This document shows, piece by piece, positions 31,398 to 44,303 of a DNA stretch of 64,000 bases. Below the pieces are notes generated by a model. That model did no database searches and was not told the DNA's origin. It saw nothing but the letters and a program-made list of their open reading frames with translations. The DNA comes from Cupriavidus pauculus (GTDB lineage Bacteria > Pseudomonadota > Gammaproteobacteria > Burkholderiales > Burkholderiaceae): NCBI RefSeq assembly GCF_008693385.1, contig NZ_CP044067.1:2771501-2835500 (forward strand), written 5' to 3'. Each line of letters begins with the position of its first letter. The first letter of the stretch is position 1. The position numbers and the translations under genes are program-made.

Positions 31398-33191
31398 ATG
31401 CATCCCAACTCCCGAATGCTGTCGATCATCGCCGGGGTTTGTGCGTTGACCATATTCATGGTCGATGCGATGACCCCACTGGACATCGCTATCGCGGTGC
31501 TCTACGTCGTTGTCGTGCTGCTGGTGGCGTCCACCGGCTCGCGCAAGGCCACCATCACCGCCAGCGCGATCTGCGCGGTGCTGACGGTGCTCGGCTATCT
31601 GATCTCCACGCCGCCGAATTCCGGGGTGGCGCCGCTCGCGCGCTGCTTCGTCAGCCTGCTGGCCAACAGCACGGCCACGCTGCTGGCCTTGCGCGGGCTC
31701 GGCAACACCGCGCGCCTGCGCGAGCAGATCCAGATGCTGAACCTCACGCACGACGCCATCGTCGTGCACGACATGGACGACATCATCACGTTCTGGAACC
31801 GGGGCGCGCATGAAGTCTACGGCTGGACGGCCGCCGAGGCCGTCGGCCAGTCGATCCACGCGCTGACGCGCACCACGTTCCCGATCCCGATCGAGCATAT
31901 CCACGACGAACTGCTGCGCGTGGGCCACTGGGACGGCGAGGTGCAGCGCGTGCGCAAGGACGGCCAGCTGCTGACCATTTCCAGCAGGTGGGCATTGTGG
32001 CGCGACGCGCGCGGTAACCCGGTGGCGATCGTCGCGACCAGCAACGACATTACGGACCGCAAGCGCGCGGAAGCCGCGCTCGCGCGCAGCGAGGCGTTCC
32101 TGTCCGAGGCCCAGCGGCTCAGCAAGACCGGGAGCATGGCGCTCCAGCCGCCGTACTCGGAAATGACGTGGTCGCCTGAAGCGTATCGGATTCTCGGTTA
32201 CGATCGCGATGTCACGCCGTCGCCGGAGCTCATCGCCGCGCGCACGCACCCGGACGACCTTGCGCGCGTCAGCGCGTCCCGGCAGATGTTGCGCGAAGGG
32301 AAGCCCTATATCGATCTCGAGCACCGATTATTGATGCCCGATGGCAGTATTCGGTATGTGCACTTCGTCGCGCGGCGTACCAACGCCGCGCCGCTGCTTC
32401 CGGAGTATGTGGGCGCGCTGATGGACGTCACCGATGCGGCTGTCACGCAGGAAGCGTTACAGCGTTCGCAGGCGGAACTCGCGCACGTGACGCGCGTCAC
32501 AACACTCGGCGAGCTGGCGGCATCCATCGCCCACGAGGTCAGCCAGCCGCTGGCGGCGATCGTGACGTGCGGCGACTCGGCCGTGCGCTGGCTGGATCGC
32601 GCGCCGCCCGATATCGCCGAAGCCCAGCTGTCGATCGGGCAGATGGTCCGCGATGCGCGCCGCGCCACGGATATCATCCATCAGATCCGTTCGATGGCGA
32701 AAAAGCGCGATCCGGTCTACGAGCGACTGGACCTCAACGTGCTCGTAACGGAAGCCGCCAGCCTGGTGCGGCGAGAATTCCAGGCCAACCGCGTGGAGCC
32801 GGATATCCGGCTCGCGCCGACGGCACTCTATGTGTCGGGAGACCGCGTGCAGCTCCATCAGGTCCTGATCAACCTGCTGGTGAACGCGGTACAGGCGATG
32901 GCGTCCATTCGCGACCGCCGCAGGGATTTGTGGGTCGTCACCGAGCGCGTGCAGGGCGTGCGCTATGCGGCGATCACCGTACGGGATGCCGGCTGCGGAT
33001 TTCCGCCGGCGGATGCGGACAAGCTGTTCAACGCGTTTTACTCCACAAAAAAGGACGGCATGGGAATGGGGTTGTCAATCTGCCGCTCGATCGTCGAAGC
33101 CCATGGAGGAAGAATATGGGCCGAATCGCCTCCGGAGAGAGGTGCGACGCTACGGGTGGAACTTCCGTTGCATGAGGAGGTACTCCAATGA
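31398..33191 (+). CDS. Membrane-bound PAS sensor histidine kinase (FixL/TodS-like)
   Basis: The 597-residue protein has four hydrophobic N-terminal segments (about residues 8-25, 29-46, 52-70 and 78-100), two PAS domains (about 112-222 and 240-350, with DAIVVHDMDDIITFWNRGAHEVYGW and WSPEAYRILGYDRDVTPSPE), a HisKA dimerisation domain with H379 in ASIAHEVSQPLAAI, and an HATPase domain with LINLLVNAVQAM, DAGCGF and GMGMGLSICRSIVEAHGG. It is an orthodox kinase of the HPK4/FixL type. Its stop overlaps the start of the cognate FixJ-type regulator. The signal sensed cannot be told. Confidence 0.93.
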   Translation: MHPNSRMLSIIAGVCALTIFMVDAMTPLDIAIAVLYVVVVLLVASTGSRKATITASAICAVLTVLGYLISTPPNSGVAPLARCFVSLLANSTATLLALRGLGNTARLREQIQMLNLTHDAIVVHDMDDIITFWNRGAHEVYGWTAAEAVGQSIHALTRTTFPIPIEHIHDELLRVGHWDGEVQRVRKDGQLLTISSRWALWRDARGNPVAIVATSNDITDRKRAEAALARSEAFLSEAQRLSKTGSMALQPPYSEMTWSPEAYRILGYDRDVTPSPELIAARTHPDDLARVSASRQMLREGKPYIDLEHRLLMPDGSIRYVHFVARRTNAAPLLPEYVGALMDVTDAAVTQEALQRSQAELAHVTRVTTLGELAASIAHEVSQPLAAIVTCGDSAVRWLDRAPPDIAEAQLSIGQMVRDARRATDIIHQIRSMAKKRDPVYERLDLNVLVTEAASLVRREFQANRVEPDIRLAPTALYVSGDRVQLHQVLINLLVNAVQAMASIRDRRRDLWVVTERVQGVRYAAITVRDAGCGFPPADADKLFNAFYSTKKDGMGMGLSICRSIVEAHGGRIWAESPPERGATLRVELPLHEEVLQ

Positions 33192-33829
33192 GTCACGGGA
33201 CGGACGGTGCCGCGGGGAGCGCGATCGTCTACGTCGTCGATGACGACGAATCCATGCGCAACGCGGTGCGCATGCTGCTGCGGTCCGTGGGATTTCGCGT
33301 CGAGGTGTTTGCCACGGCCGCGGAGTTCCTGGAGCAGGAACTCGAGGATGCGCCCAGCTGCCTCGTGCTCGATGTTCGCCTGAAAGGGCAAAGCGGGCTG
33401 GCCGTTCAGCAGCAGATCATGGAGGAGCGGGTACCCATTCCGATCATCTTCATGACCGCGCACGGCGACATTGCGATGTCGGTCAAGGCCATGAAGGCCG
33501 GCGCCACGGACTTTCTCGCAAAGCCGTTTCGCGATCAGGACATGCTGGATGCGGTGGCGGACGCGCTCGCGCGCGACGAGGAACGCCGCAATTCCGACCG
33601 TTCGCTGTCCGAGCTGCGACGACGATACGACTCGCTCACGCCCCGTGAACGCGAGGTAATGGCGCTGGTGACGCGCGGGCTCATGAACAAGCAGATCGCT
33701 TCGGAGATGAGCCTCAGCGAGATCACGGTCAAGCTGCATCGCGGCCAGGCCATGCGCAAGATGGCCGCGCGGTCCCTCGCGGACCTCGTTCTCAAGGCCG
33801 AAGCCCTCGGCGTGGCGCCGGCCAACTGA
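33188..33829 (+). CDS. FixJ-type response regulator (REC + LuxR HTH)
   Basis: The 213-residue protein has a receiver domain (IVYVVDDDESMRNAVRMLL, phosphoacceptor D62 in LVLDVRLKG, T in FMTAHG, K in LAKPFRDQDML) and a LuxR/NarL helix-turn-helix (LTPREREVMALVTRGLMNKQIASEMSLSEITVKLHRGQAMRKM). Translation is coupled to the kinase by an ATGA overlap. It is the best candidate for the protein that binds the CCTATA-N6-TATAGG sites around it; FixJ-family regulators bind inverted repeats as dimers. Confidence 0.94.
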   Translation: MSHGTDGAAGSAIVYVVDDDESMRNAVRMLLRSVGFRVEVFATAAEFLEQELEDAPSCLVLDVRLKGQSGLAVQQQIMEERVPIPIIFMTAHGDIAMSVKAMKAGATDFLAKPFRDQDMLDAVADALARDEERRNSDRSLSELRRRYDSLTPREREVMALVTRGLMNKQIASEMSLSEITVKLHRGQAMRKMAARSLADLVLKAEALGVAPAN

Positions 33830-33953: not shown

Positions 33954-34086
33954 GTCTACAAACTTAATCACGGCGTGCGTAAACGGATGTCTGTCTGGTT
34001 GTCGGCAAGCGGCTGATATACCTTGGAAGGCATGTTGGCGGTGCATGGTTGCACTGCCTTGCCAACCCCCAGATAGCAGGTTTGAC

Positions 34087-35058
34087 ATGACCGGAACTAC
34101 CGCATACAGCCCCGATATCAGTCCTGAACTCGCCACCCCGGTGCGCCCCGCGTTTGCCGACTCCCCGATCGGGGAGGAGGTCAACTGGCGTGAACACTCG
34201 GCGGGGCTGGACGCCACGGCCGTGCGTTCCCGGCATGTCCCCGTGGCACGCTGGATTCGCCCCGACGCGGGCCCGCTCGAGGTCAGCCACGATGGCTTCG
34301 ACGCGCATCACTGCATCGGCCTGAGCCTGCGCAGCCTCAATTGCACGTTCCAGTCGGCGGGCCGGCTGATCGTCCAGGGCCGCGTGGCGGCCGGCGCGGT
34401 GCAGATCACGGCGCCGCGCGTGCCCGTCAACGCCACGTTCGAATCGGCCAGCGACGTGCTGCACCTGTTCGTGCCGCAGGGCGTGCTGGCGGATTGCCAT
34501 CAGGATTTGTTCGGGCGTCCGCACAACGGCGATATCGTGCTGTCGGACCCGCGGCTGATCACCGATACGACGATGGAACGCCTGGGCCAGGCACTGGCGA
34601 TGGCGCATACGCAGGACCCGAGCCTGGGCCGCCTGTTCATCGACAGCGTGAGCCTCGCCATCGTGTCGCGTCTGGTCAGCAACCACTTCAACCGCGTGGC
34701 CACGCAGTCGCGCCACGTGTCGGGTCTGCCGGCATGGCGCCTGCGCCGGGTGGTGGAATATATCGACGCGCATCTCTCGGAGGCGATCGGCCTGGCCGAT
34801 ATCGCCGAGAGCGCGGGCCTGACGCGCATGCACTTTGCCGCGCAGTTCCGTCTTGCCACCGGCCTGCGTCCGCACGAATACCTGCTGCGCCGCCGGATCG
34901 AGCACGCACAGGATCTGCTGCGCGACGACAAGGGGAGTGTGCTGGACGTGGCGCTGCGCTGCGGCTTCCGCTCGCAGGCGCACTTCACGACGGTGTTTCG
35001 CCGCTTCGTGGGGGATACGCCTTACCGCTGGCGCAGCAAGGTCGCCGTCACGGGCTAG
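34087..35058 (+). CDS. AraC-family transcriptional regulator
   Basis: The 323-residue protein has a C-terminal AraC domain with two helix-turn-helix motifs: EAIGLADIAESAGLTRMHFAAQFRLATGLRPHEYLLRRRIEHAQ and SVLDVALRCGFRSQAHFTTVFRRFVGDTPYRWR. The first 220 residues are a sensor region without a recognised domain (VNWREHSAGLDATAVRSRHV near residue 35). The motif copy 4 lies upstream, so it may be under control of the two-component system. It is convergent with gntP across a GC-rich hairpin. The ATG follows an AGG by six bases. Confidence 0.88.
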   Translation: MTGTTAYSPDISPELATPVRPAFADSPIGEEVNWREHSAGLDATAVRSRHVPVARWIRPDAGPLEVSHDGFDAHHCIGLSLRSLNCTFQSAGRLIVQGRVAAGAVQITAPRVPVNATFESASDVLHLFVPQGVLADCHQDLFGRPHNGDIVLSDPRLITDTTMERLGQALAMAHTQDPSLGRLFIDSVSLAIVSRLVSNHFNRVATQSRHVSGLPAWRLRRVVEYIDAHLSEAIGLADIAESAGLTRMHFAAQFRLATGLRPHEYLLRRRIEHAQDLLRDDKGSVLDVALRCGFRSQAHFTTVFRRFVGDTPYRWRSKVAVTG

Positions 35059-35124: not shown

Positions 35125-36477
35125 TCAAACGATTGTGGCCAGTCCCAGCGTCAGCAGCAGTGCCACCACGGAGATGATCGTCTCCGCGACCGACCAGGTC
35201 TTGAAGGTCTGGGTCACGGTCATGTTGAAGTACTCCTTCACCAGCCAGAAGCCCGCGTCGTTCACGTGCGACAGGATCAGCGAGCCGGCGCCGGTGGTCA
35301 GCACCAGCAGTTCCGGACGCGTGCCCGGCACGCTCGCCGCGATCGGCGCGACGATGCCGGCCGCCGTGGTCATCGCCACCGTGGCGGAACCCGTGGCGAT
35401 CCGGATCAGCACCGCCACCAGCCAGCCCAGCACGAGCACCGACACGTGCGCGCTCGTGGCCACATCGACGATGGCGTTCGAGATGCCCGAGTCGCGCAGC
35501 ACGCGGCCGAAGCCGCCGCCCGCGCCGACCACGAGCGTGATGATGGCGGTAGGCGCCACGCACTCGTTGGTGAACTTCAGGATGGTCTCGCGATTGAAGC
35601 CGCGTGCCTTGCCGAACGTGAAGAAGCTCACGAGCGTGCCGATCAGCAGCGCCATCACCGAGTTGCCGATCAGCTTCAGGAAGTCGTTGGCAAACGTCTT
35701 GGGCGTCGTGAACAGGTCCGCCCAGCTGCCGATCAGCATCAGGATTACCGGCAGCAGGATCGTGAACACCGTGATGCCGAAGCTCGGCAGTTCATGGCGT
35801 TCCGCCGCTTCCTCGGTCAGTTGCTCGGCCAGCGGGTTGATCGCGGGCAGATCGACGTAGCGGTCCATCAGGCGCGCGAACAACGGACCGGCGATGGCGG
35901 CCGTGGGAATGCCGACGATCAGCGCGTACATGATCGTGCGGCCCATATCGGCACCGTAGGCGGACACCGCGAGCAGCGCGGCCGGATGCGGCGGAATCAG
36001 GCCGTGCACGACCGAGAGACCCGCCACCATCGGAATCCCCACGAGCACCATCGACGTGCCTGTACGCTTGGCCACGTTGAAGGCAATGGGCACGAGCAGC
36101 ACGAAGCCCACTTCGAAGAACACGGGCAGGCCGACGATGAACGCGATGGTCACCATGGCCCAGTGCACGTTCTTCTCGCCGAAGAAGTCGATGAGCGTGA
36201 GCGCCACGCGCTCCGCGCCGCCGGACTCCGCCATCATCTTGCCGAGCATGGTGCCCAGCCCGATCACGAGCGCGATATGCCCGAGCGTGCCGCCGACGCC
36301 GGCCTCGAACGACTTGACGATGTCGCCCATCGGCATGCCCGACGAGAAACCGAGCAGCACCGAGACCACGACGAGCGTGATGAACGGGTTGAGCTTGAAC
36401 TTGGCGATCAGGATCACCAGCGCGATCACGGCGATCAGCGCGTACACCAATAGCGTGGTTCCGGTTACGGCACCCAT
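35125..36477 (-). CDS. GntP-family sugar acid/proton symporter
   Basis: The 450-residue protein has 12 or more membrane segments of the gluconate:H+ symporter family, e.g. ALVIGLGTMLGKMMAESGGAERVALTLIDFFGE and GLIPPHPAALLAVSAYGADMG, the latter carrying the family's HPAAL motif. GntP proteins import gluconate and related sugar acids; with its neighbours here a D-glucosaminate-type substrate is the best guess. It is the last gene of the RpiR-aminoacylase-RidA-GntP operon, 49 bp after ridA. Confidence 0.92.
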   Translation of the reverse strand: MGAVTGTTLLVYALIAVIALVILIAKFKLNPFITLVVVSVLLGFSSGMPMGDIVKSFEAGVGGTLGHIALVIGLGTMLGKMMAESGGAERVALTLIDFFGEKNVHWAMVTIAFIVGLPVFFEVGFVLLVPIAFNVAKRTGTSMVLVGIPMVAGLSVVHGLIPPHPAALLAVSAYGADMGRTIMYALIVGIPTAAIAGPLFARLMDRYVDLPAINPLAEQLTEEAAERHELPSFGITVFTILLPVILMLIGSWADLFTTPKTFANDFLKLIGNSVMALLIGTLVSFFTFGKARGFNRETILKFTNECVAPTAIITLVVGAGGGFGRVLRDSGISNAIVDVATSAHVSVLVLGWLVAVLIRIATGSATVAMTTAAGIVAPIAASVPGTRPELLVLTTGAGSLILSHVNDAGFWLVKEYFNMTVTQTFKTWSVAETIISVVALLLTLGLATIV

Positions 36478-36526
36478 GTTGTCTCCTTACGGATGTATGT
36501 TGATTGGCTCGTTGGGGAAAAAGGAA

Positions 36527-36910
36527 TTACCGCTTGTAGGCGATGCAGTCGATCTCGACCTTGCAATCGACGACCATCGACGACTGCACGCAGGCGCGGG
36601 CCGGCGGGTTCGCGCCGAAATACTGCTTGAAGATCTTGTTGAACGATGCGAAGTCGCGCGCATCGTCCAGCCATACGCCGCAGCGCACGATGTGCTCGGG
36701 GCCGTAGCCCGCCTCGGCGAGGATCGCCAGCACGTTCCGGATGGCCTGATGCGTCTGCGGCACGATGCCGCCGTCGACGACTTCGCCGTCGACCATCGGG
36801 ACCTGGCCCGAAACATAGAGCCAGCCGTCGGCGCTGACCGCGCGGGCAAAGGGCATGTGCTGGCCACCGGTGCCGGTGCCGCCTTCCACGCCGTATCGTT
36901 TGATTTCCAT
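36527..36910 (-). CDS. RidA-family enamine/imine deaminase
   Basis: The 127-residue protein has the RidA/YjgF pattern: PFARAVSADGWLYVSGQVPM, GGIVPQTHQAIRNVLAILAEAGYG, and RACVQSSMVVDCKVEIDCIAYKR at the end. The substrate-binding arginine that usually reads R-x-C/T-V is present in PPARACVQ. RidA hydrolyses the reactive enamine/imine products of PLP dehydratases; a PLP dehydratase is encoded in the divergent operon. It sits 29 bp after the aminoacylase gene and 49 bp before gntP. Confidence 0.9.
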   Translation of the reverse strand: MEIKRYGVEGGTGTGGQHMPFARAVSADGWLYVSGQVPMVDGEVVDGGIVPQTHQAIRNVLAILAEAGYGPEHIVRCGVWLDDARDFASFNKIFKQYFGANPPARACVQSSMVVDCKVEIDCIAYKR

Positions 36911-36939
36911 TGGGGATTCCCGTGGAGAAGTGGAAAGAT

Positions 36940-38412
36940 CTATGCGCGCGCCGCCGGCGCGCGCGGGAGAAAGCGCCCCGCGCGCAGACCCGTGGGCGCG
37001 CGGTGCTGCCATGAGAGTTCGCCATTGACCCAGACCGCCTCGATGCCCTCGGCCGGCGCCACCGGCTCGGTGAACGTCGCGGCGTCGCGGATCGTGGCGG
37101 GGTCGAACAGCACGAGGTCGGCCCAGTAGCCCTCGCGCACGAAGCCGCGTCCGGCCAGGCCGAAGCGCTCGGCGGAGAGGCCCGTCATCTTGTTGACGGC
37201 CACCGTGAGCGGAAACAGTTCGCGGTCGCGCGCGTAGTGGCCCAGCACGCGTGGGAATGCGCCCCACAGCCGCGGATGCGGCAGCGGGTCGTTGGGCAGG
37301 CCGTCGGAGCCGATGACCGTGGCCGGGTGGCGCAGGATGCGATCGACGTCGGCGTCTTCCATGCCGTGATACACGGCGCCGGCCGGTTGCAGGCGGCGCG
37401 CGGCCGCATGCAGATCCACGCCCCATTCGGCCGCGATATCGGCGAGCAGGCGGCCGCCCATCGCGGGCTCGGGCTCGGACCACGTGATCAGGATGTCGAA
37501 GTCGCTCGTCACCTGCTTGAGGTCGAGCGTCGAAGAACTGGCCGCATAGGGGTAGCAGTCGCAGCCGACCTGTTGCCAGCGCTGGGCCTGTTCGAGCGCG
37601 CCCAGCACCTCGCCGCTGCGGCCCCAGTTGGCCACGCCCGCGCACTTGAGGTGCGAGATCACGACGGGCACGCGCGCATGGCGGCCGATGCGGAACGCTT
37701 CGTCCATCGCGTCGAGGATCTCGGCGAATTCGCTGCGCAGATGGGTCGCATAGAGGCCGCCGGCGTTCGCAAGCGGCTCGGCCAGCGCCAGCACTTCTTC
37801 GGTGGGCGCCGAGAATGCGTTCGCATACGCGAGTCCCGTGGACAGGCCGAGCGCACCGGCATCCAGCGCCTCCTGCAGCTGCGCGCGCATGGCCGCGATT
37901 TCCGCGGCGGTGGCCGCGCGGTCGAAGCGGTCCATATGGTTGCTGCGCAGCGCCGTGTGGCCCACGAGCGCGGCCACGTTGACGGCCGGCTGCGCGGCAT
38001 CGACCGCCGCCACGTAGCTGCGGAAGTCGGGGTAGCGGAAGGCCTCGGCATGGCCGAGCAGGTTCATCGGGTCCGGCGGGTCGCCCGCGAGCGTGACCGG
38101 CGCCGCGCTGATGCCGCAGTTGCCGACGATCACGGTGGTCACGCCCTGCGAGAGCTTGGGCGTCATGGCCGGTTCGCGCACGACATTGGTGTCGTCGTGC
38201 GTGTGCACGTCGATAAAGCCCGGGGCCAGCGCGAGGCCATGGCCTTCGACCACATGCGCGGCGCTGTCGGGGTCGATCGGCGTGTCTTCGTCAAGCCATG
38301 CGATGCGCGCGATGCGGCCATCGCGCACGCCGACGTCGGCCATGCGCGGGGCCGCGCCGGAACCGTCCAGCAGCAGCACGCAGCGAATCAGGGTATCGAA
38401 CAGGTGGGGCAT
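36940..38412 (-). CDS. N-acyl-D-amino-acid deacylase (D-aminoacylase)
   Basis: The 490-residue amidohydrolase has the metal ligands expected for D-aminoacylases: GFIDVHTHDD (H70, H72) and the bridging cysteine in VGNCGIS (C99), plus the family segments SQGVTTVIVGNCG, STGLAYANAFSAPTEEVLALAEPL and PVVISHLKCAG. These enzymes hydrolyse the N-acyl group from N-acyl-D-amino acids. In this operon N-acetyl-D-glucosaminate, which has D configuration at C2, is a plausible substrate. It starts one base after the RpiR stop (GTG-like start region resolved to the ATG of MPHLFDTL) and is therefore coupled. Confidence 0.92.
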   Translation of the reverse strand: MPHLFDTLIRCVLLLDGSGAAPRMADVGVRDGRIARIAWLDEDTPIDPDSAAHVVEGHGLALAPGFIDVHTHDDTNVVREPAMTPKLSQGVTTVIVGNCGISAAPVTLAGDPPDPMNLLGHAEAFRYPDFRSYVAAVDAAQPAVNVAALVGHTALRSNHMDRFDRAATAAEIAAMRAQLQEALDAGALGLSTGLAYANAFSAPTEEVLALAEPLANAGGLYATHLRSEFAEILDAMDEAFRIGRHARVPVVISHLKCAGVANWGRSGEVLGALEQAQRWQQVGCDCYPYAASSSTLDLKQVTSDFDILITWSEPEPAMGGRLLADIAAEWGVDLHAAARRLQPAGAVYHGMEDADVDRILRHPATVIGSDGLPNDPLPHPRLWGAFPRVLGHYARDRELFPLTVAVNKMTGLSAERFGLAGRGFVREGYWADLVLFDPATIRDAATFTEPVAPAEGIEAVWVNGELSWQHRAPTGLRAGRFLPRAPAARA

Positions 38413-38413
38413 G

Positions 38414-39313
38414 TCAGTCTCCCAGCGGCTGGCGGCTATCGGCGTGCGTGCCGCGGTGGTCGTCCAGCACATACTTGATGCGGCGCAGACGTTCCTGGCT
38501 CTGGTCCTGGTGCAGCAGCGCGATCTGGGTCGCCAGCACGTCGAGCACGAGCAGCATCGCGTAGCGCGAGGCCGACGGCTTGAAGATAAAGTCGGTCTCG
38601 AGCGTGCGCACCGGCAGCAGCACGTCCGCCAGCGCGGCCAGCGGAGAGCCGAGCGCGGTCACCGCGACGAGCTTCGCGCCGTATTCGCGCGCGATCTCGC
38701 AACTGGCGAGCATCTCGGGCACGTTGCCGCTCGCGGAGAACGCCAGTACCACGTCGTCGCGCACGAGGGTGGCGGCCATCATCTTCTGGAGCAGCGCATC
38801 GTGATAGCTCGCGGCCGGATGGCCGAGCCGCGCGAGCCGGTGACTGGCTTCATCGGCGAGCATCGTCGAGGCACCGCCCATGCCAAAAGCGTAGACCATG
38901 CGGGCATCGCACAACAGGCGCGCGGCGGTTTCGATGCGTTCGGGGTCGATCATCTTGCGATTGGCATCGAGCGCGGCCACCGCGTCGGCATGGACGCGAT
39001 CGGCCAGCGTGGCCGGTGCGGCCTCGTGCGCGCCGCCCGCGTGGGCGCCGCCGCTCGGCAGAAACCGCGAGCCCACGGCAGTGGCCTGCGCCAGCCGCAG
39101 CTTCAGGTCACGCACATCGCGGCAGCCCAGCGCCTTGGCCAGGCGCGTCACGCTCGCCTCGCTGACCCCGGCCTTTCGCGCGAGCGCGTTGATGCTCGCG
39201 GCCGCGGCGCCGGCGACATCTTCGAGGATCACCTGCGCCACCTTCTGCTCGGCCAGCCGCAGCGCGGGGCCGCGCTCGGCGATGCGGGTGAGGATGTCGA
39301 AGGGGGCGGTCAT
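38414..39313 (-). CDS. MurR/RpiR-family transcriptional regulator
   Basis: The 299-residue protein has the RpiR helix-turn-helix (KVAQVILEDVAGAAAASINALARKAGVSEASVTRLAKALGC, about 20-65) and a C-terminal SIS domain with the sugar-phosphate-binding pattern VYAFGMGGASTMLADEASHRLARLG and ALVLAFSASGNVPEML-like DDVVLAFSASG. RpiR proteins sense sugar phosphates; KDPG, made by the divergent operon, is a likely effector. It is the first gene of its operon. The 92-bp gap to the divergent dehydratase gene carries two inverted repeats. Confidence 0.92.
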   Translation of the reverse strand: MTAPFDILTRIAERGPALRLAEQKVAQVILEDVAGAAAASINALARKAGVSEASVTRLAKALGCRDVRDLKLRLAQATAVGSRFLPSGGAHAGGAHEAAPATLADRVHADAVAALDANRKMIDPERIETAARLLCDARMVYAFGMGGASTMLADEASHRLARLGHPAASYHDALLQKMMAATLVRDDVVLAFSASGNVPEMLASCEIAREYGAKLVAVTALGSPLAALADVLLPVRTLETDFIFKPSASRYAMLLVLDVLATQIALLHQDQSQERLRRIKYVLDDHRGTHADSRQPLGD

Positions 39314-39322
39314 GGCGTCTCG

Positions 39323-39372
39323 TGTTACTTTCTAACAAACGGTGGCGCATGGTAATTTCCCGCTATTATTAC
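39323..39372. promoter_or_regulatory. Divergent regulatory region with two inverted repeats
   Basis: The first repeat is TGTTA-CTTTC-TAACA (39323-39337), ten bases upstream of the RpiR start codon on the other strand; the second is GTAAT-N11-ATTAC (39352-39372). They lie between the two divergent operons and are candidate RpiR operators. Confidence 0.5.
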
Positions 39373-39405
39373 GTCAACCCGCGTATTTACCCCAAAGCAA
39401 TAACG

Positions 39406-40680
39406 ATGCATGAGACAAAGTATCAGCCGGGCATGATCGACCCGGTGAACAAGGCACTGGGCCGTCTGCCGGCGCCCCTGGCCCCGGACTCGGCAGGCGA
39501 AGTCGGCTGGCGACTGCTCGACGAAGACCTGAGCCTGCCCGCCGCGGTGCTCTACGAGGATCGTCTGGCGCACAACCTCGACTGGATGCGCCGCTTCATG
39601 GGCGAGTACGGCGTGCAGCTCGCGCCGCATGGCAAGACCACGATGGCCCCGAAGCTGTTCGCGCGCCAGCTCGCGGAAGGCGCATGGGGCATCACGCTCG
39701 CCACCGCGCACCAGACGGCCGCCGCCCATGCCCACGGCGTCACGCGCGTGCTGATGGCCAATCAGCTCGTCGGCCGACGCAATATGGAAATCATCGCGGA
39801 CCTGCTGCAGGACCCCGATTTCGAATTCTTCACGCTCGTGGATTCCGCCGAGCTCGTCGATCGGCTCGGTGCGTTCTTCCACCAGCGCGGGCAGCGACTG
39901 CAGGTGCTGCTCGAGGTCGGTGTGACAGGGGGCCGCACGGGTGTGCGCGACGCCGCGCAGCAGGCCGCGGTGCTGGCCGCGCTGCAACGCTGGCCCCATG
40001 CGCTCTCGCTGGCGGGCGTGGAAGTGTACGAAGGGGTCGTGCAACAGGAGTCCGAGGTCCGCGCATTCCTGCGCCGCACGGTCGCCGTCACGCGCGAACT
40101 CGCGGCGGCCGGCGCGTTCGGCCGGCAGCCCGTCATCCTGTCGGGCGCCGGGTCGGCGTGGTACGACGTCGTGGCCGAGGAGTTTTCCGGCGCGAACATC
40201 GGTGCCCCGGTCGACGTCGTGCTGCGCCCCGGCTGCTACCTCACGCACGACGTCGGTATCTACCGCGCCGCGCAGGAACGCATCCTCGCGGGCAACCCCG
40301 TTGCGCAGAAGATGCGCGAAGGCCTGTTGCCCGCGTTGCAGCTGTGGGCCTACGTGCAATCGATTCCCGAACCGGGCCGCGCGATCGTCGGCCTTGGCAA
40401 GCGCGACGCGGCGTTCGACGCGGGCCTGCCGATTCCCGCGCGCCACTACCGGCCGCAGGGCGCGACCACGGCGCCGGTGGACACCCCGCCGCATTGGAAG
40501 ATCACGGGCATGATGGACCAGCATGCCTACCTCGAGATTCGTGCTGGCGATGACCTGCGCGTCGGCGATATGATTGCCTTCGACATCTCGCATCCGTGCC
40601 TGACGTTCGACAAGTGGCGCCATATTCCGGTGCTCGACCGTCAGTTCCGCGTCATCGATATCGTGCAGACCTTCTTCTGA
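39406..40680 (+). CDS. PLP-dependent dehydratase/deaminase of the D-threonine aldolase / DSD1 family, possible D-glucosaminate dehydratase
   Basis: The 424-residue fold-type III PLP enzyme has the lysine in QLAPHGKTTMAPKLF (K77) and, near the C-terminus, a metal-binding-like SHPCLTFDKWR. Relatives include D-threonine aldolase and D-serine dehydratase; from memory, the D-glucosaminate dehydratase of Pseudomonas also belongs here. The next two genes encode KDG kinase and KDPG aldolase, which would consume 2-keto-3-deoxygluconate, the product of D-glucosaminate dehydration. This context favours D-glucosaminate over a plain D-amino acid. The ATG of MHETKYQPG is used; the frame is open 28 codons further into the regulatory region. 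Confidence 0.85.
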   Translation: MHETKYQPGMIDPVNKALGRLPAPLAPDSAGEVGWRLLDEDLSLPAAVLYEDRLAHNLDWMRRFMGEYGVQLAPHGKTTMAPKLFARQLAEGAWGITLATAHQTAAAHAHGVTRVLMANQLVGRRNMEIIADLLQDPDFEFFTLVDSAELVDRLGAFFHQRGQRLQVLLEVGVTGGRTGVRDAAQQAAVLAALQRWPHALSLAGVEVYEGVVQQESEVRAFLRRTVAVTRELAAAGAFGRQPVILSGAGSAWYDVVAEEFSGANIGAPVDVVLRPGCYLTHDVGIYRAAQERILAGNPVAQKMREGLLPALQLWAYVQSIPEPGRAIVGLGKRDAAFDAGLPIPARHYRPQGATTAPVDTPPHWKITGMMDQHAYLEIRAGDDLRVGDMIAFDISHPCLTFDKWRHIPVLDRQFRVIDIVQTFF

Positions 40681-40694
40681 GGAGCGACTGCGAC

Positions 40695-41630
40695 ATGAGC
40701 ATCGACATTCTTGCCTACGGCGAGCCGCTGGTGGAATTCAACCAGCAGCCCGACGATCCCGCGCGCTACCTGCAGGGTTTTGGCGGCGATACATCGAACT
40801 TCTGCATCGCGGCCGCGCGCCAGGGAGCCACCACGGGCTACATCGCCGCCGTCGGCGCCGACAGCTTCGGCGAGCGCCTGCGCGAGCTGTGGACGCGCGA
40901 ACGCGTGGATACGCGCCACGTCAGCGTGAATCCCTCCGCGCCCACGGGCGTGTATTTCGTCTCGCACGACAGCCACGGCCATCGGTTCGACTACCTGCGC
41001 GAAGGTTCGGCGGCGGCCCGCTACCATCACGAGCAGCTACCGCTTGCCGCCATCGCGCAGGCACGCTTTCTTCACGTGTCGGGCATCAGCCTCGCCATCA
41101 GCACGAGCGCGTGCGACGCGGGCCTCGCCGCGATGGAGCATGCGCGCAAGGCCGGCGTGCAGGTTTCGCTGGACACCAATCTGCGCCTGCGGCTGTGGTC
41201 GCTCGCCCGCGCGCGCGGCATCATGCGCGAGGCCTTTTCGCTGACCGATATCTGCCTGCCCAGCTGGGACGACATCACGGTGCTGACCGGACTCGACGAC
41301 CGCGACGCGATCGTCGATTACCTGCTGGGCTGCGGCATCGGCCTGATTGCGCTGAAGCTGGGCGAGGAGGGCAGCTATGTGGCCACGCCCGAATCGCGCG
41401 CGCTGGTGCCGCCGTTCCCCGTGGAGCCGCTCGACGCCACGGGCGCCGGCGATTGCTTCGGCGGCAGCTTTATCGCGCGGCTCGCGGCCGGCGCCGATCC
41501 GTTCGCGGCCGCGCGCTACGCCAATGTGGCCGCCGCCCTGTCCACGACCGGTTATGGCGCGGTAGCGCCGATCCCGCGCGCGGAGGCCGTGCTCGCGCGG
41601 CTGGAACATTCGGTCTCCGTGATTGCCTGA
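40695..41630 (+). CDS. kdgK: 2-keto-3-deoxygluconate kinase (PfkB family)
   Basis: The 311-residue ribokinase-type sugar kinase begins with the KDG-kinase pattern DILAYGEPLVEFNQQP and YLQGFGGDTSNFCIAAARQGA, and ends its active site with DATGAGDCFGGSFIARLAAG, where the GAGD aspartate is the catalytic base. It would phosphorylate 2-keto-3-deoxygluconate to KDPG with ATP. It lies 14 bp after the dehydratase gene with a GAGGAG ribosome binding site and 45 bp before eda. Confidence 0.9.
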   Translation: MSIDILAYGEPLVEFNQQPDDPARYLQGFGGDTSNFCIAAARQGATTGYIAAVGADSFGERLRELWTRERVDTRHVSVNPSAPTGVYFVSHDSHGHRFDYLREGSAAARYHHEQLPLAAIAQARFLHVSGISLAISTSACDAGLAAMEHARKAGVQVSLDTNLRLRLWSLARARGIMREAFSLTDICLPSWDDITVLTGLDDRDAIVDYLLGCGIGLIALKLGEEGSYVATPESRALVPPFPVEPLDATGAGDCFGGSFIARLAAGADPFAAARYANVAAALSTTGYGAVAPIPRAEAVLARLEHSVSVIA

Positions 41631-41675
41631 TTCTTATGCCGGGCCAGTATCGGCCCGGCCCAAACGCTCAATGTC

Positions 41676-42317
41676 ATGACAACTCCTTCGACTTCCCTGC
41701 TGGAACGCCTGTCCAACGTGCCGGTGATTCCGGTCCTCGAATACCACTCCGTGGACGAAGCCCTGCATGTCAGCGAGGCGCTCGTCTCCGGTGGCCTGCC
41801 GTGGCTGGAGATCACGCTGCGCACGCCGGTGGCGCTCGACGCCATTCGCGAGGTCGCCAAGGCGCTGCCGCAGGCGGTGGTCGGCGCCGGCACCGTGCTG
41901 AACAGCGATCAGCTGCACGCCGTGCGCGACGCGGGCGCGCAGTTCGCGGTATCGCCGGGCCTGACGCAGACGCTCGCGGACGGCGCGCGCGATGCGGGCA
42001 TCGCGCTGCTGCCGGGCGTGGCCACGGCCAGCGAGGCGATGTTCGCGCTCGAGAACGGCTTTACCTTCCTGAAATTTTTTCCGGCCGAAGCGGCCGGCGG
42101 CGTGCCGATGCTGAAGTCGCTGTACGGCCCGCTCGCGCAGCTGAAGTTCTGCCCGACCGGCGGCATCGACGCGAACAAGGCGCTGACCTATCTGGCGCTG
42201 CCGAACGTCGTGTGCGTGGGCGGCTCGTGGGTCGTGCCGAAGGATGCAGTGGCGGGCAAGGACTGGGCGCGCATACGCGGTCTGGCCGAGGAAGCGTCGC
42301 GACTGCGCGGCAAGTAA
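41676..42317 (+). CDS. eda: KDPG/KHG aldolase
   Basis: The 213-residue class I aldolase has the family's catalytic residues: E45 and R49 in LPWLEITLRTP, and the Schiff-base lysine K133 in FTFLKFFPAEAAGG. GTVLNSDQ and TGGIDANKALTYLAL are also typical. It splits KDPG into pyruvate and glyceraldehyde 3-phosphate. It is the last gene of the dehydratase-kinase-aldolase operon; a terminator follows 16 bp after the stop. Confidence 0.95.
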   Translation: MTTPSTSLLERLSNVPVIPVLEYHSVDEALHVSEALVSGGLPWLEITLRTPVALDAIREVAKALPQAVVGAGTVLNSDQLHAVRDAGAQFAVSPGLTQTLADGARDAGIALLPGVATASEAMFALENGFTFLKFFPAEAAGGVPMLKSLYGPLAQLKFCPTGGIDANKALTYLALPNVVCVGGSWVVPKDAVAGKDWARIRGLAEEASRLRGK

Positions 42318-42643: not shown

Positions 42644-43978
42644 CTAGCCGGAGCCCAGCAACTGGCGGGCGCGCGCGGCAATCGCACCGTGCGTCTGCGC
42701 GAGCCAGTGCGCGGGAAACGGCTGGGCCAGCAGATAGCCCTGCATGCCGTCGCAGCCCCAGTCGCGCACCATCTGGAGCTGCCCGCGCGTCTCCACGCCC
42801 TTGGCGCACACCACCGCGCCTGCCTGCCGCGCGAGCGCGCAGGCGGTGCGCAACGGCTCGGGATCGTCCGCGCGCGTGGCGTGGCCCACATGGCGCGCAT
42901 CGAGCGTCACCGCATCGGGCCGCAGCAATTCCAGCGCGCGCATCGCTGCGGGCGTGTTCGTGAAGTCGCCGAGCGCGATGCGCACGCCGGACGCGCGCAG
43001 CATCGCGGCCTTGCGCGAGGTCATGGGGTCGTCGGGCACGATATCGGCCGGCACTTCGATGCAGAGGCGGCCATTCGGAATGTCGAACGCCTCCACGCTG
43101 CGGCGAAGCAGGTCCAGGGTCTCGTTGCCATGCAGCTGGGCGCTGGACGCGAGCAGCGTGAACTGGACCGGCGCCACGGCCTCGGTGGCGCGCATCAGCG
43201 GCAGCATCGTCTGCAGCAGCCAGGCGCCCATCTGATGCATCATGCCCAGCGATTCGGCCACGGGGAGAAAGTCCTGCGGCGCAACGCGCCCGAACAGCGC
43301 ATGTTGCCAACGTAACCGCACCGTATAGCCGGACACGTCGCCGGTGCCGAACATCGCGCGCGGCTGCAACTGCAATCCGAACTCGCCGCGCGCCAGCGCA
43401 TCGGGCAGGGCGGAGATGAGGGAGGCCAGCCGCGGCGAGGCCGGCGTTGCCGCATTGCCGATGCCATCGCCGCCGCGGCGGTACACCTGCAGCATCGCGT
43501 CGAACGCCAGCTGGAGGTTACGCTCCGTCGCGGTTTCAGGATGGTCGAGCGCGCTCCCGATGCTGCAGGAGAGGAACAGTTCGTAGCCATCGATCTGGAA
43601 AGGGCGGCCGAGCGCGGCGGCGATGCTCGCGCCGATCGCCGCCGTGTCGCCATCCTGGGGCAGCACACAGGCCGCGCCGAGGTCGGCGGGCCCGAGCCAC
43701 TGGGCAACGAGCGGCGCGGCCACGTTCCCGACGCGCGTTTCGATGTGCTCGCGCAGCCGATGCGCGCGCTCGAGGCCGATCGTCTCGCAGACGTTCTGAA
43801 ACCGGTCGAGCCGGATGACGAATACCGCGAGGGGGTGCGCGCCGCGCAGGGCGGCGCGGTGAGCGTCGAGGGCGGCGATGAACGTGGCGGGCTGCACGGC
43901 GGGCCGCACGCCACCCGCCTGCGGAGTGTCCGCTGCATCGCCGGTGAGGCGCCTGGCACCCCCGGTATCTGGATCCAT
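42644..43978 (-). CDS. Degenerate GGDEF-EAL protein, probably inactive in c-di-GMP turnover
   Basis: The 444-residue product has an N-terminal half that aligns by pattern with a GGDEF domain but lacks the signature (LFLSCSIGSALDHPETATERNLQLAFDAML remains) and a C-terminal EAL half. Catalytic EAL positions are lost: the EAL motif site reads LQLQPRAMF, the usual DDFGTG reads LGDFTNTP, and the EGVE site reads AKGVETRGQ. The ending DGMQGYLLAQPFPAHWL is typical. It is therefore probably a c-di-GMP sensor or a structural protein rather than a phosphodiesterase. The start is uncertain; ATG at 43978 was chosen. Confidence 0.85.
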   Translation of the reverse strand: MDPDTGGARRLTGDAADTPQAGGVRPAVQPATFIAALDAHRAALRGAHPLAVFVIRLDRFQNVCETIGLERAHRLREHIETRVGNVAAPLVAQWLGPADLGAACVLPQDGDTAAIGASIAAALGRPFQIDGYELFLSCSIGSALDHPETATERNLQLAFDAMLQVYRRGGDGIGNAATPASPRLASLISALPDALARGEFGLQLQPRAMFGTGDVSGYTVRLRWQHALFGRVAPQDFLPVAESLGMMHQMGAWLLQTMLPLMRATEAVAPVQFTLLASSAQLHGNETLDLLRRSVEAFDIPNGRLCIEVPADIVPDDPMTSRKAAMLRASGVRIALGDFTNTPAAMRALELLRPDAVTLDARHVGHATRADDPEPLRTACALARQAGAVVCAKGVETRGQLQMVRDWGCDGMQGYLLAQPFPAHWLAQTHGAIAARARQLLGSG

Positions 43979-44303
43979 CAGTCTTCGTGCGCCCCTGCAT
44001 TGCGTGACCTTACGCAAGCGGATCGCATACCCGTTGAACAAGTGCTTATGTAATCGTTTTCAGCCCCGTCGCTCTGTCGGCGCGAATGCTTGTAGTTGGA
44101 TGGTGCAGGCTCGCATCATACGGCAGCCTGAGAGAGAATCAGAAGACACGAAGCTGTTCGAGTGCGGTAGCCGCCGCTTGCTGTTGTTTCTCGTCGATGA
44201 GCGGGAATGTCCTAACCTTTGGCGTATTGACCCGGGGACAACGCATGAAGTAATGGGGAGGGCGCGGTTTTCCCCTCCCCGTGGGCGCCTTCGCGGTGGA
44301 TCG
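43979..44303. other. Intergenic stretch without recognised gene
   Basis: About 325 bp between the EAL gene start and the CorC/HlyC-like gene end. I see no conserved frame, hairpin with a T run, or repeat. Confidence 0.5.

Follow-up and report, generated by a model that had tools for sequence, protein, structure and literature searches.

This analysis concerns a window of 64,000 nucleotides from Cupriavidus pauculus (contig NZ_CP044067.1), part of a 7.06-Mb genome in three contigs, and within it seven genes at positions 35125-42317 which resemble the published cluster for catabolism of oxidised N-acetylglucosamine (ong). All seven genes are present and intact, and they form two divergent operons. 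The minus-strand operon encodes a GntP permease, a RidA protein, an OngB-type amidohydrolase and an RpiR/MurR regulator; the plus-strand operon encodes an enzyme dependent on pyridoxal phosphate (PLP), a PfkB kinase and an aldolase for 2-keto-3-deoxy-6-phosphogluconate (KDPG). Intergenic gaps measure 49, 29 and 1 bp within the former and 14 and 45 bp within the latter, and the gap common to both operons, between ongR and ongC, is 92 bp long. These genes, strands and the shared control region had been claimed in an original prediction made from the DNA alone, with which profile matches and coordinates agree. The start codons of the seven genes are our choice. The features are as follows.

35125-36477, minus strand: GntP-family permease, predicted importer of N-acetyl-D-glucosaminate (GlcNAc1A) or D-glucosaminate (PF02447, 549 bits; TIGR00791 over its cut-off; substrate assigned only by position)
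36527-36910, minus strand: RidA-family protein, OngD homologue (PF01042; 60% identity to RidA of L153, a Pseudoalteromonas ong cluster)
36940-38412, minus strand: OngB homologue, predicted GlcNAc1A deacetylase of the D-aminoacylase fold family (PF07969; 54% identity to PpOngB, PDB 9kb1; 51% to AfDam)
38414-39313, minus strand: OngR homologue, RpiR/MurR-family regulator, predicted repressor (PF01418 and PF01380; 47% identity to OngR of P. shioyasakiensis L153)
39323-39337, no strand: predicted OngR operator TGTTACTTTCTAACA, of the form TGTTA-N5-TAACA (motif scans of the gap, the genome and related loci)
39406-40680, plus strand: OngC homologue, PLP-dependent enzyme of fold type III, predicted D-glucosaminate deaminase/dehydratase (PF14031 and PF01168; 47% identity to OngC of P. 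shioyasakiensis L153)
40695-41630, plus strand: PfkB-family kinase, predicted 2-keto-3-deoxygluconate (KDG) kinase (PF00294; best NCBIfam match a KDG/KDGal kinase, below cut-off)
41676-42317, plus strand: KDPG aldolase Eda (PF01081; TIGR01182 and NF004325 over cut-off)

The reactions of such a cluster are described for P. prydzensis ACAM 620 (PMC9537276, Jiang et al. 2022). OngB deacetylates GlcNAc1A, OngC converts the deacetylated product to KDG and ammonia, and KdgK phosphorylates KDG. Growth on GlcNAc1A is lost in ongB, ongC, ongD (RidA) and kdgK mutants, and a transporter is needed as well. OngR is a MurR/RpiR repressor which controls the ongOT-1 and ongCRBD operons, and its targets stay repressed on glucose. 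According to the same paper, kdgA is added in the clusters of Vibrio, Klebsiella and Serratia.

Very probably, the two operons of the window are the Cupriavidus form of this ong cluster. The assignment draws on sequence throughout: the homology and arrangement of the core genes, the specificity residues of OngB, an operator-like site and an eda gene which is the sole PF01081 gene of the genome. The GntP permease would import GlcNAc1A or D-glucosaminate, the OngB-type amidohydrolase would remove acetate, and the OngC-type enzyme, helped by RidA in an undefined way, would convert D-glucosaminate to KDG and ammonia. KdgK would then yield KDPG, which Eda would split into pyruvate and glyceraldehyde 3-phosphate. 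OngR is predicted to repress both operons from the TGTTA-N5-TAACA site between them, with the substrate or an intermediate lifting the repression. We infer that Cupriavidus may grow on GlcNAc1A.

The earlier biochemical guess is supported by these comparisons. It had named GlcNAc1A as a substrate for the D-aminoacylase-like protein, which the OngB specificity residues fit, and had let the PLP enzyme produce KDG and ammonia before the kinase step; the homologous reactions are published for OngB and onwards up to KDPG (PMC9537276). The aldolase step fits the ong pathway too, but is only hypothesised in that paper. As for RidA, which had been assumed to clear an enamine intermediate, OngD is needed for growth, yet KDG and ammonia were formed in vitro by OngB and OngC alone, and that role is putative. 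The pathway is already known: its description in Pseudoalteromonas dates from 2022, and a link between C. necator genes and glucosaminate appeared in print in 2013. New here are a GntP permease in place of a sodium:solute symporter (SSS), a scope confined to monomers, and an eda gene which is built in and sole in the genome.

The window shares with the P. prydzensis cluster OngB, OngC, OngR, RidA, a PfkB-type kinase and the same proposed order of reactions, and with the Pseudoalteromonas loci L153 and L155 the same operator-like site. Identities to the annotated cluster L153 amount to 60% for RidA, 54% for OngB, 47% for both OngC and OngR, and 28% for the kinase, whose score against the KDG-kinase model lies below cut-off. 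In contrast to the ong cluster, the window has GntP where the former has the SSS symporter OngIT, includes eda, is arranged as two divergent operons, and has neither a TonB receptor nor a GH20 enzyme among its seven genes. An SSS transporter is present in L155 and in the distant relatives L109 and L110.

Other known systems touch this one at single points. Genes H16_B1211-B1213 of C. necator (Ralstonia eutropha) were assigned in 2013 to glucosaminate degradation plus the Entner-Doudoroff (ED) pathway (PMC3734047). We liken them to the window by their published description; the section of that paper which discusses them mentions neither deacetylation nor the other operon. GapMind's new glucosamine route relies on NagX acetylation and is distinct from the ong-type route (PMC9007349), and no clear OngB or OngC is reported in the consulted part of a study of Aeromonas (PMC11653859). 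The uptake route for D-glucosaminate by a phosphotransferase system (PTS), termed Dga, resembles the window in that D-glucosaminate ends as KDPG, and none of the seven genes belongs to PTS uptake or D-glucosaminate-6-phosphate lyase families (the wider genome was not searched for these). In the Dga route of Salmonella, the substrate is phosphorylated at uptake, a different lyase is used and no acetyl group is removed.

Conservation was followed in the best 80 of 288 OngC relatives; as these are the closest kin, the counts lean towards conservation. OngB is found in 77 of these loci, RidA and RpiR in 76 each, GntP in 72, KdgK in 69 and Eda in 45. All seven genes occur in 45 loci, while RidA, the aminoacylase and RpiR stand beside OngC in 75. 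Such co-occurrence indicates that the gene set is not a chance assembly. Within the Cupriavidus group (L009-L044), 36/36 loci hold all seven genes with kinase and aldolase after the PLP enzyme; the closest named loci among those returned, compared over this enzyme, are from Cupriavidus plantarum (92%) and C. pampae (90%). Two stretches of OngC, PHGKTTM and SHPCLTFDKWR, are invariant in 13 aligned sequences, the window's included.

Exactly this gene set had been proposed as the unit to look for. All Cupriavidus-group loci keep it, and nine Ralstonia-group loci have it in a different arrangement, with eda at the opposite end, past gntP; elsewhere the core four are found without Eda, KdgK or GntP. 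In Silvimonas (L045, L046) and Amantichitinum (L061), GntP follows OngC and KdgK is absent; a GH20 hexosaminidase adjoins the Silvimonas terrae cluster (L045:3099-5516), a hint which links the GntP form to chitin sugars. Two distant genomes (G012, G165) carry OngC-GntP-RpiR-OngB-RidA in one direction, and two others (G365, G272) have an SSS transporter in GntP's stead. These arrangements suggest a stable core with an exchanged transporter. Locus L074 is cut by a contig end.

At the level of genomes, an OngC match at E <= 1e-60 was obtained in 5 of 369 genomes of a class sample (one being the window's own) and in 221 of 299 of a Burkholderiaceae sample, a few of them weak, above 1e-100. The gene is present in 38 of the 40 Cupriavidus genomes listed, the two without it being G416 and G426; 58 further non-matching genomes of the family sample fall outside that listing. 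The ong core is therefore widespread in Burkholderiaceae.

The 92-bp gap offers a concrete candidate for the OngR operator. Allowing one mismatch, TGTTACTTTNTAACA has a single match in the whole genome, namely the site in the gap, and the backward control has none. When the half-sites may carry one mismatch, 0.11 matches are expected in the window (11 of 100 shuffles have one). Perfect TGTTA-N5-TAACA sites lie in the ongR-ongC gap of 62 of 75 loci, with six different spacers, and nowhere in their other 1.34 Mb; many of the 75 are close kin, so that 62 is not a count of independent events. Among the 13 gaps without a perfect site, six were inspected: five have a one-mismatch form and L061 has none.

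Most telling are the paired sites of Pseudoalteromonas, which we regard as the strongest support for an operator. In P. shioyasakiensis L153, two perfect copies at a distance of 32 bp occupy the region that separates ongC from a TonB-receptor gene; in P. piscicida L155, a pair at the same distance of 32 bp lies in front of the TonB-receptor gene located ahead of ongC. Random Markov-1 sequences hold 0.04 sites per locus, and no such pair arose in 400 for either locus. The sites fall at operons matching the OngR-repressed ongOT-1 and ongCRBD of P. prydzensis (PMC9537276), a paper in whose main text we found no wording on an OngR binding site. TGTTA-N5-TAACA is thus the probable OngR operator. 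For the TonB-receptor gene beside ongC (L153:5827-7956), a single open frame covers just the barrel part, and the gene is missing from the gene table. A sigma-70 scan returned a single promoter-like site, in the gap, against 0.7 expected in the 8.2 kb scanned, and no weight is placed on it.

Control of eda by HexR was considered and rejected. Two exact TGTAGA-N3-TCTACA palindromes stand between the 6-phosphogluconate dehydratase gene edd and a HexR-like gene (L111:9495-9692; G000 contig C1 near 2030508-2030674); they are the only exact ones in the genome, and none lies in the cluster. At up to two mismatches the window contains nine HexR-type sites against 3.6 expected (2 of 100 shuffles reach nine); one of them falls within gntP, and the intergenic regions of the cluster contain none. 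With one mismatch permitted, a backward-pattern control gave 11 places against the five found, and for this reason only the two exact places were used. Nor does OngR appear to be the HexR ortholog: it is 34% identical to the genome's HexR-like protein versus 47% to OngR of L153, and scores 175 bits where the NCBIfam HexR cut-off is 296 (the edd-linked paralogue reaches 266 bits and does not pass either). KDPG as OngR ligand is not supported: where the HexR-like protein has an S-x-S-G-x-T loop, the window's OngR reads S-A-S-G-N-V, and the repression of OngR targets on glucose speaks against it in P. prydzensis (PMC9537276). RccR is a KDPG-binding relative of HexR with TGTAGT/ACTACA sites (PMC5489143).

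The eda gene of the operon is the only PF01081 match genome-wide, beside two edd genes over cut-off. PF01081 occurs in 59 of 60 genus genomes, exactly once in 53 of them and more often in six, the extra matches reaching at most 103 bits versus at least 229 bits for the main one. In all 38 OngC-bearing Cupriavidus genomes, eda lies 1.0-1.5 kb downstream of ongC on the same strand. One genus member (G426; 7.7 Mb, 97% complete) has neither an OngC match nor a PF01081 aldolase. An addiction system dependent on KDPG aldolase is known in R. eutropha, in keeping with a single gene for this enzyme; it is based on a mutant.

As eda lies within the ong operon with its OngR site, the sole KDPG aldolase is predicted to be under OngR, not HexR. 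For an industrially used genus, this raises the question of how cells growing on fructose or gluconate turn on their one KDPG aldolase. Leaky repression, a promoter within the operon or a shared ligand could account for expression on fructose without GlcNAc1A. We put forward, tentatively and as somewhat less than an even bet, that all ED catabolism of Cupriavidus necessarily has the ong operon as its lower half, so that every sugar degraded via KDPG would depend on an operon under OngR, with OngR answering also to a shared sugar metabolite or an internal promoter driving eda. If so, scavenging of an oxidised chitin sugar would be coupled to general sugar metabolism.

In a rival reading, the main present role of the plus-strand operon is to supply the lower arm of the ED pathway, its amino-sugar-acid function being secondary or lost. 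The sole aldolase beside two edd genes and the retention of PF01081 across the genus speak for it, as does the induction of H16_B1211-B1213 in the growth phase on fructose, in a strain devoid of phosphofructokinase (PMC3734047). However, the window retains intact copies of ongC, ongB, ridA, ongR and gntP, the specificity residues of OngB are in place, and ongC is kept in nearly all listed genus genomes, so that we consider this reading improbable.

For OngB, the residues that make it a GlcNAc1A deacetylase have been named from PpOngB (PDB 9kb1, 9kb3; PMC12017989, Wang et al. 2025). The window protein equals PpOngB at 21/21 catalytic and substrate-binding positions, including Ala193, Glu226, Ala256, Ser290-292, Gln298 and Gly348. 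For the count across loci, 73 unbroken sequences from the 77 loci with a match were taken together with the window's (L011, L015, L051 and L075 were dropped); all compared positions but 348 are constant in 74/74, and position 348 is Cys in 56, Asn in 12 and Gly in six. The D-aminoacylase AfDam of Alcaligenes faecalis (PDB 1m7j, 1rjp) shares fold family and metal ligands with the window protein at 51% identity, but has Phe193, Met256, Gly290, Thr292 and Met348 (PpOngB numbering) in place of the Ala, Ala, Ser, Ser and Gly of the window protein. Opposite Gln298, AfDam has Arg in our alignment and Leu in PMC12017989; Gln appears in neither. An annotated Azospirillum D-aminoacylase has Leu256, Thr292, Lys298 and Asn348. 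The D-aminoacylase pocket, hydrophobic in AfDam or with Arg in BbDam (residues taken from PMC12017989, not aligned) and with Thr292, is not found in the window protein.

These residues, shared with PpOngB and unlike those of two D-aminoacylases, make GlcNAc1A a much likelier substrate than N-acetyl-D-amino acids. A D-aminoacylase-type route for N-acetyl-D-amino acids or D-amino acids would suit the family membership of the aminoacylase and the PLP enzyme, and the closest solved relative of the latter (PDB 3gwq; 620 bits against the window's OngC, full length) was deposited as a D-serine deaminase. P. prydzensis OngC deaminates D-serine and D-threonine in addition to its action on glucosaminate (PMC9537276); it is thus not confined to D-amino acids, the case which had been set against the original prediction, and exclusive use of glucosaminate is not claimed. 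On the other hand, no activity of PpOngB was detected with any of the N-acetyl-D-amino acids assayed (PMC12017989), and KDG kinase and KDPG aldolase would have no evident role, yet they follow ongC throughout the Cupriavidus group. A D-amino acid route is clearly unlikely. PDB 3gwq may itself be a glucosaminate deaminase, and the comparison suggests that Burkholderiaceae proteins named D-aminoacylase, D-serine deaminase or amino acid deaminase may be sugar-acid enzymes. Another 2-acylamino-2-deoxy aldonate or a free aldonate, for instance N-acetyl-D-galactosaminate, is a highly improbable substrate: GntP permeases take several aldonates and no result here speaks directly against this C4 epimer, but the PpOngB residues which contact the C3-C6 hydroxyls of GlcNAc1A are all kept in the window protein, and the last gene of the operon encodes an aldolase of the KDPG type (NF004325 over cut-off), a good fit for KDPG derived from the gluco form.

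Two side observations concern the OngB structures. An amidohydrolase without a specific name (PDB 9g5m, 9gv8), 63% identical to the window protein, carries OngB residues at all compared positions except Asn348 and is for this reason probably a GlcNAc1A deacetylase. The text of PMC12017989 on the alpha metal site names Cys79; when the remaining ligands are in register, PpOngB has Pro at position 79, and the naming is possibly a slip for another residue.

Several points weigh against the ong assignment. The activity of P. prydzensis OngC on D-amino acids and the low identity of the kinase have been mentioned. Four distant relatives keep Ser292 and Gln298 of OngB, but Gly290 is found in L109 and L110, and Ala291 in L108. 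Within the stretch examined, GntP and KdgK are missing beside the core in loci of Pandoraea (L050, L052), Paraburkholderia (L078) and Burkholderia (L086); an MFS protein is encoded near the core in L078 and L086. In L057 and L068, OngC homologues (70-71%) occur without RidA, OngB and RpiR nearby, on contigs which reach 2.9 and 9 kb on that side. No operator-like site within one mismatch is seen at ongC in L087, L107, L108, L110 and L061, and the GH20 gene of L045 has no tblastn match in the other 79 loci. Finally, no source of the substrate was detected: the window's genome has no match to lytic polysaccharide monooxygenases (LPMO; PF03067, AA10), none to GH20 hexosaminidases of the OngA type (PF00728), and no membrane dehydrogenase dependent on pyrroloquinoline quinone (TIGR03074) over cut-off, only one piece of 27.8 bits (GH18 chitinases and outer-membrane receptors were not searched).

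The lack of such matches makes the organism look like a monomer scavenger, and the likeliest life style is the uptake of monomers freed by others. The claim that every step from uptake to central metabolism is encoded here is supported for the handling of monomers, but not for their release, for which no LPMO or GH20 model matched. The complete pathway, ong plus LPMO, is placed in Gammaproteobacteria with one betaproteobacterial exception (PMC9537276); among Burkholderiaceae, our check for LPMO covers the window's own genome alone.

An RNA hairpin between kdgK and eda was discarded as a conserved element: a strong stem is present in the window and in L013, and elsewhere there are stems of other sequence or none. 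Upstream of the cluster, at 31398-33829 and 34045-35058, lie genes for a PAS sensor kinase, a FixJ-like response regulator and an AraC-type regulator; relatives of the latter two (>60 bits) adjoin the cluster in L009 and L013 only among the 80 loci. After the cluster, an EAL-domain protein is encoded at 42644-44041 on the opposite strand, and it occupies the same place in many loci of the Cupriavidus group.

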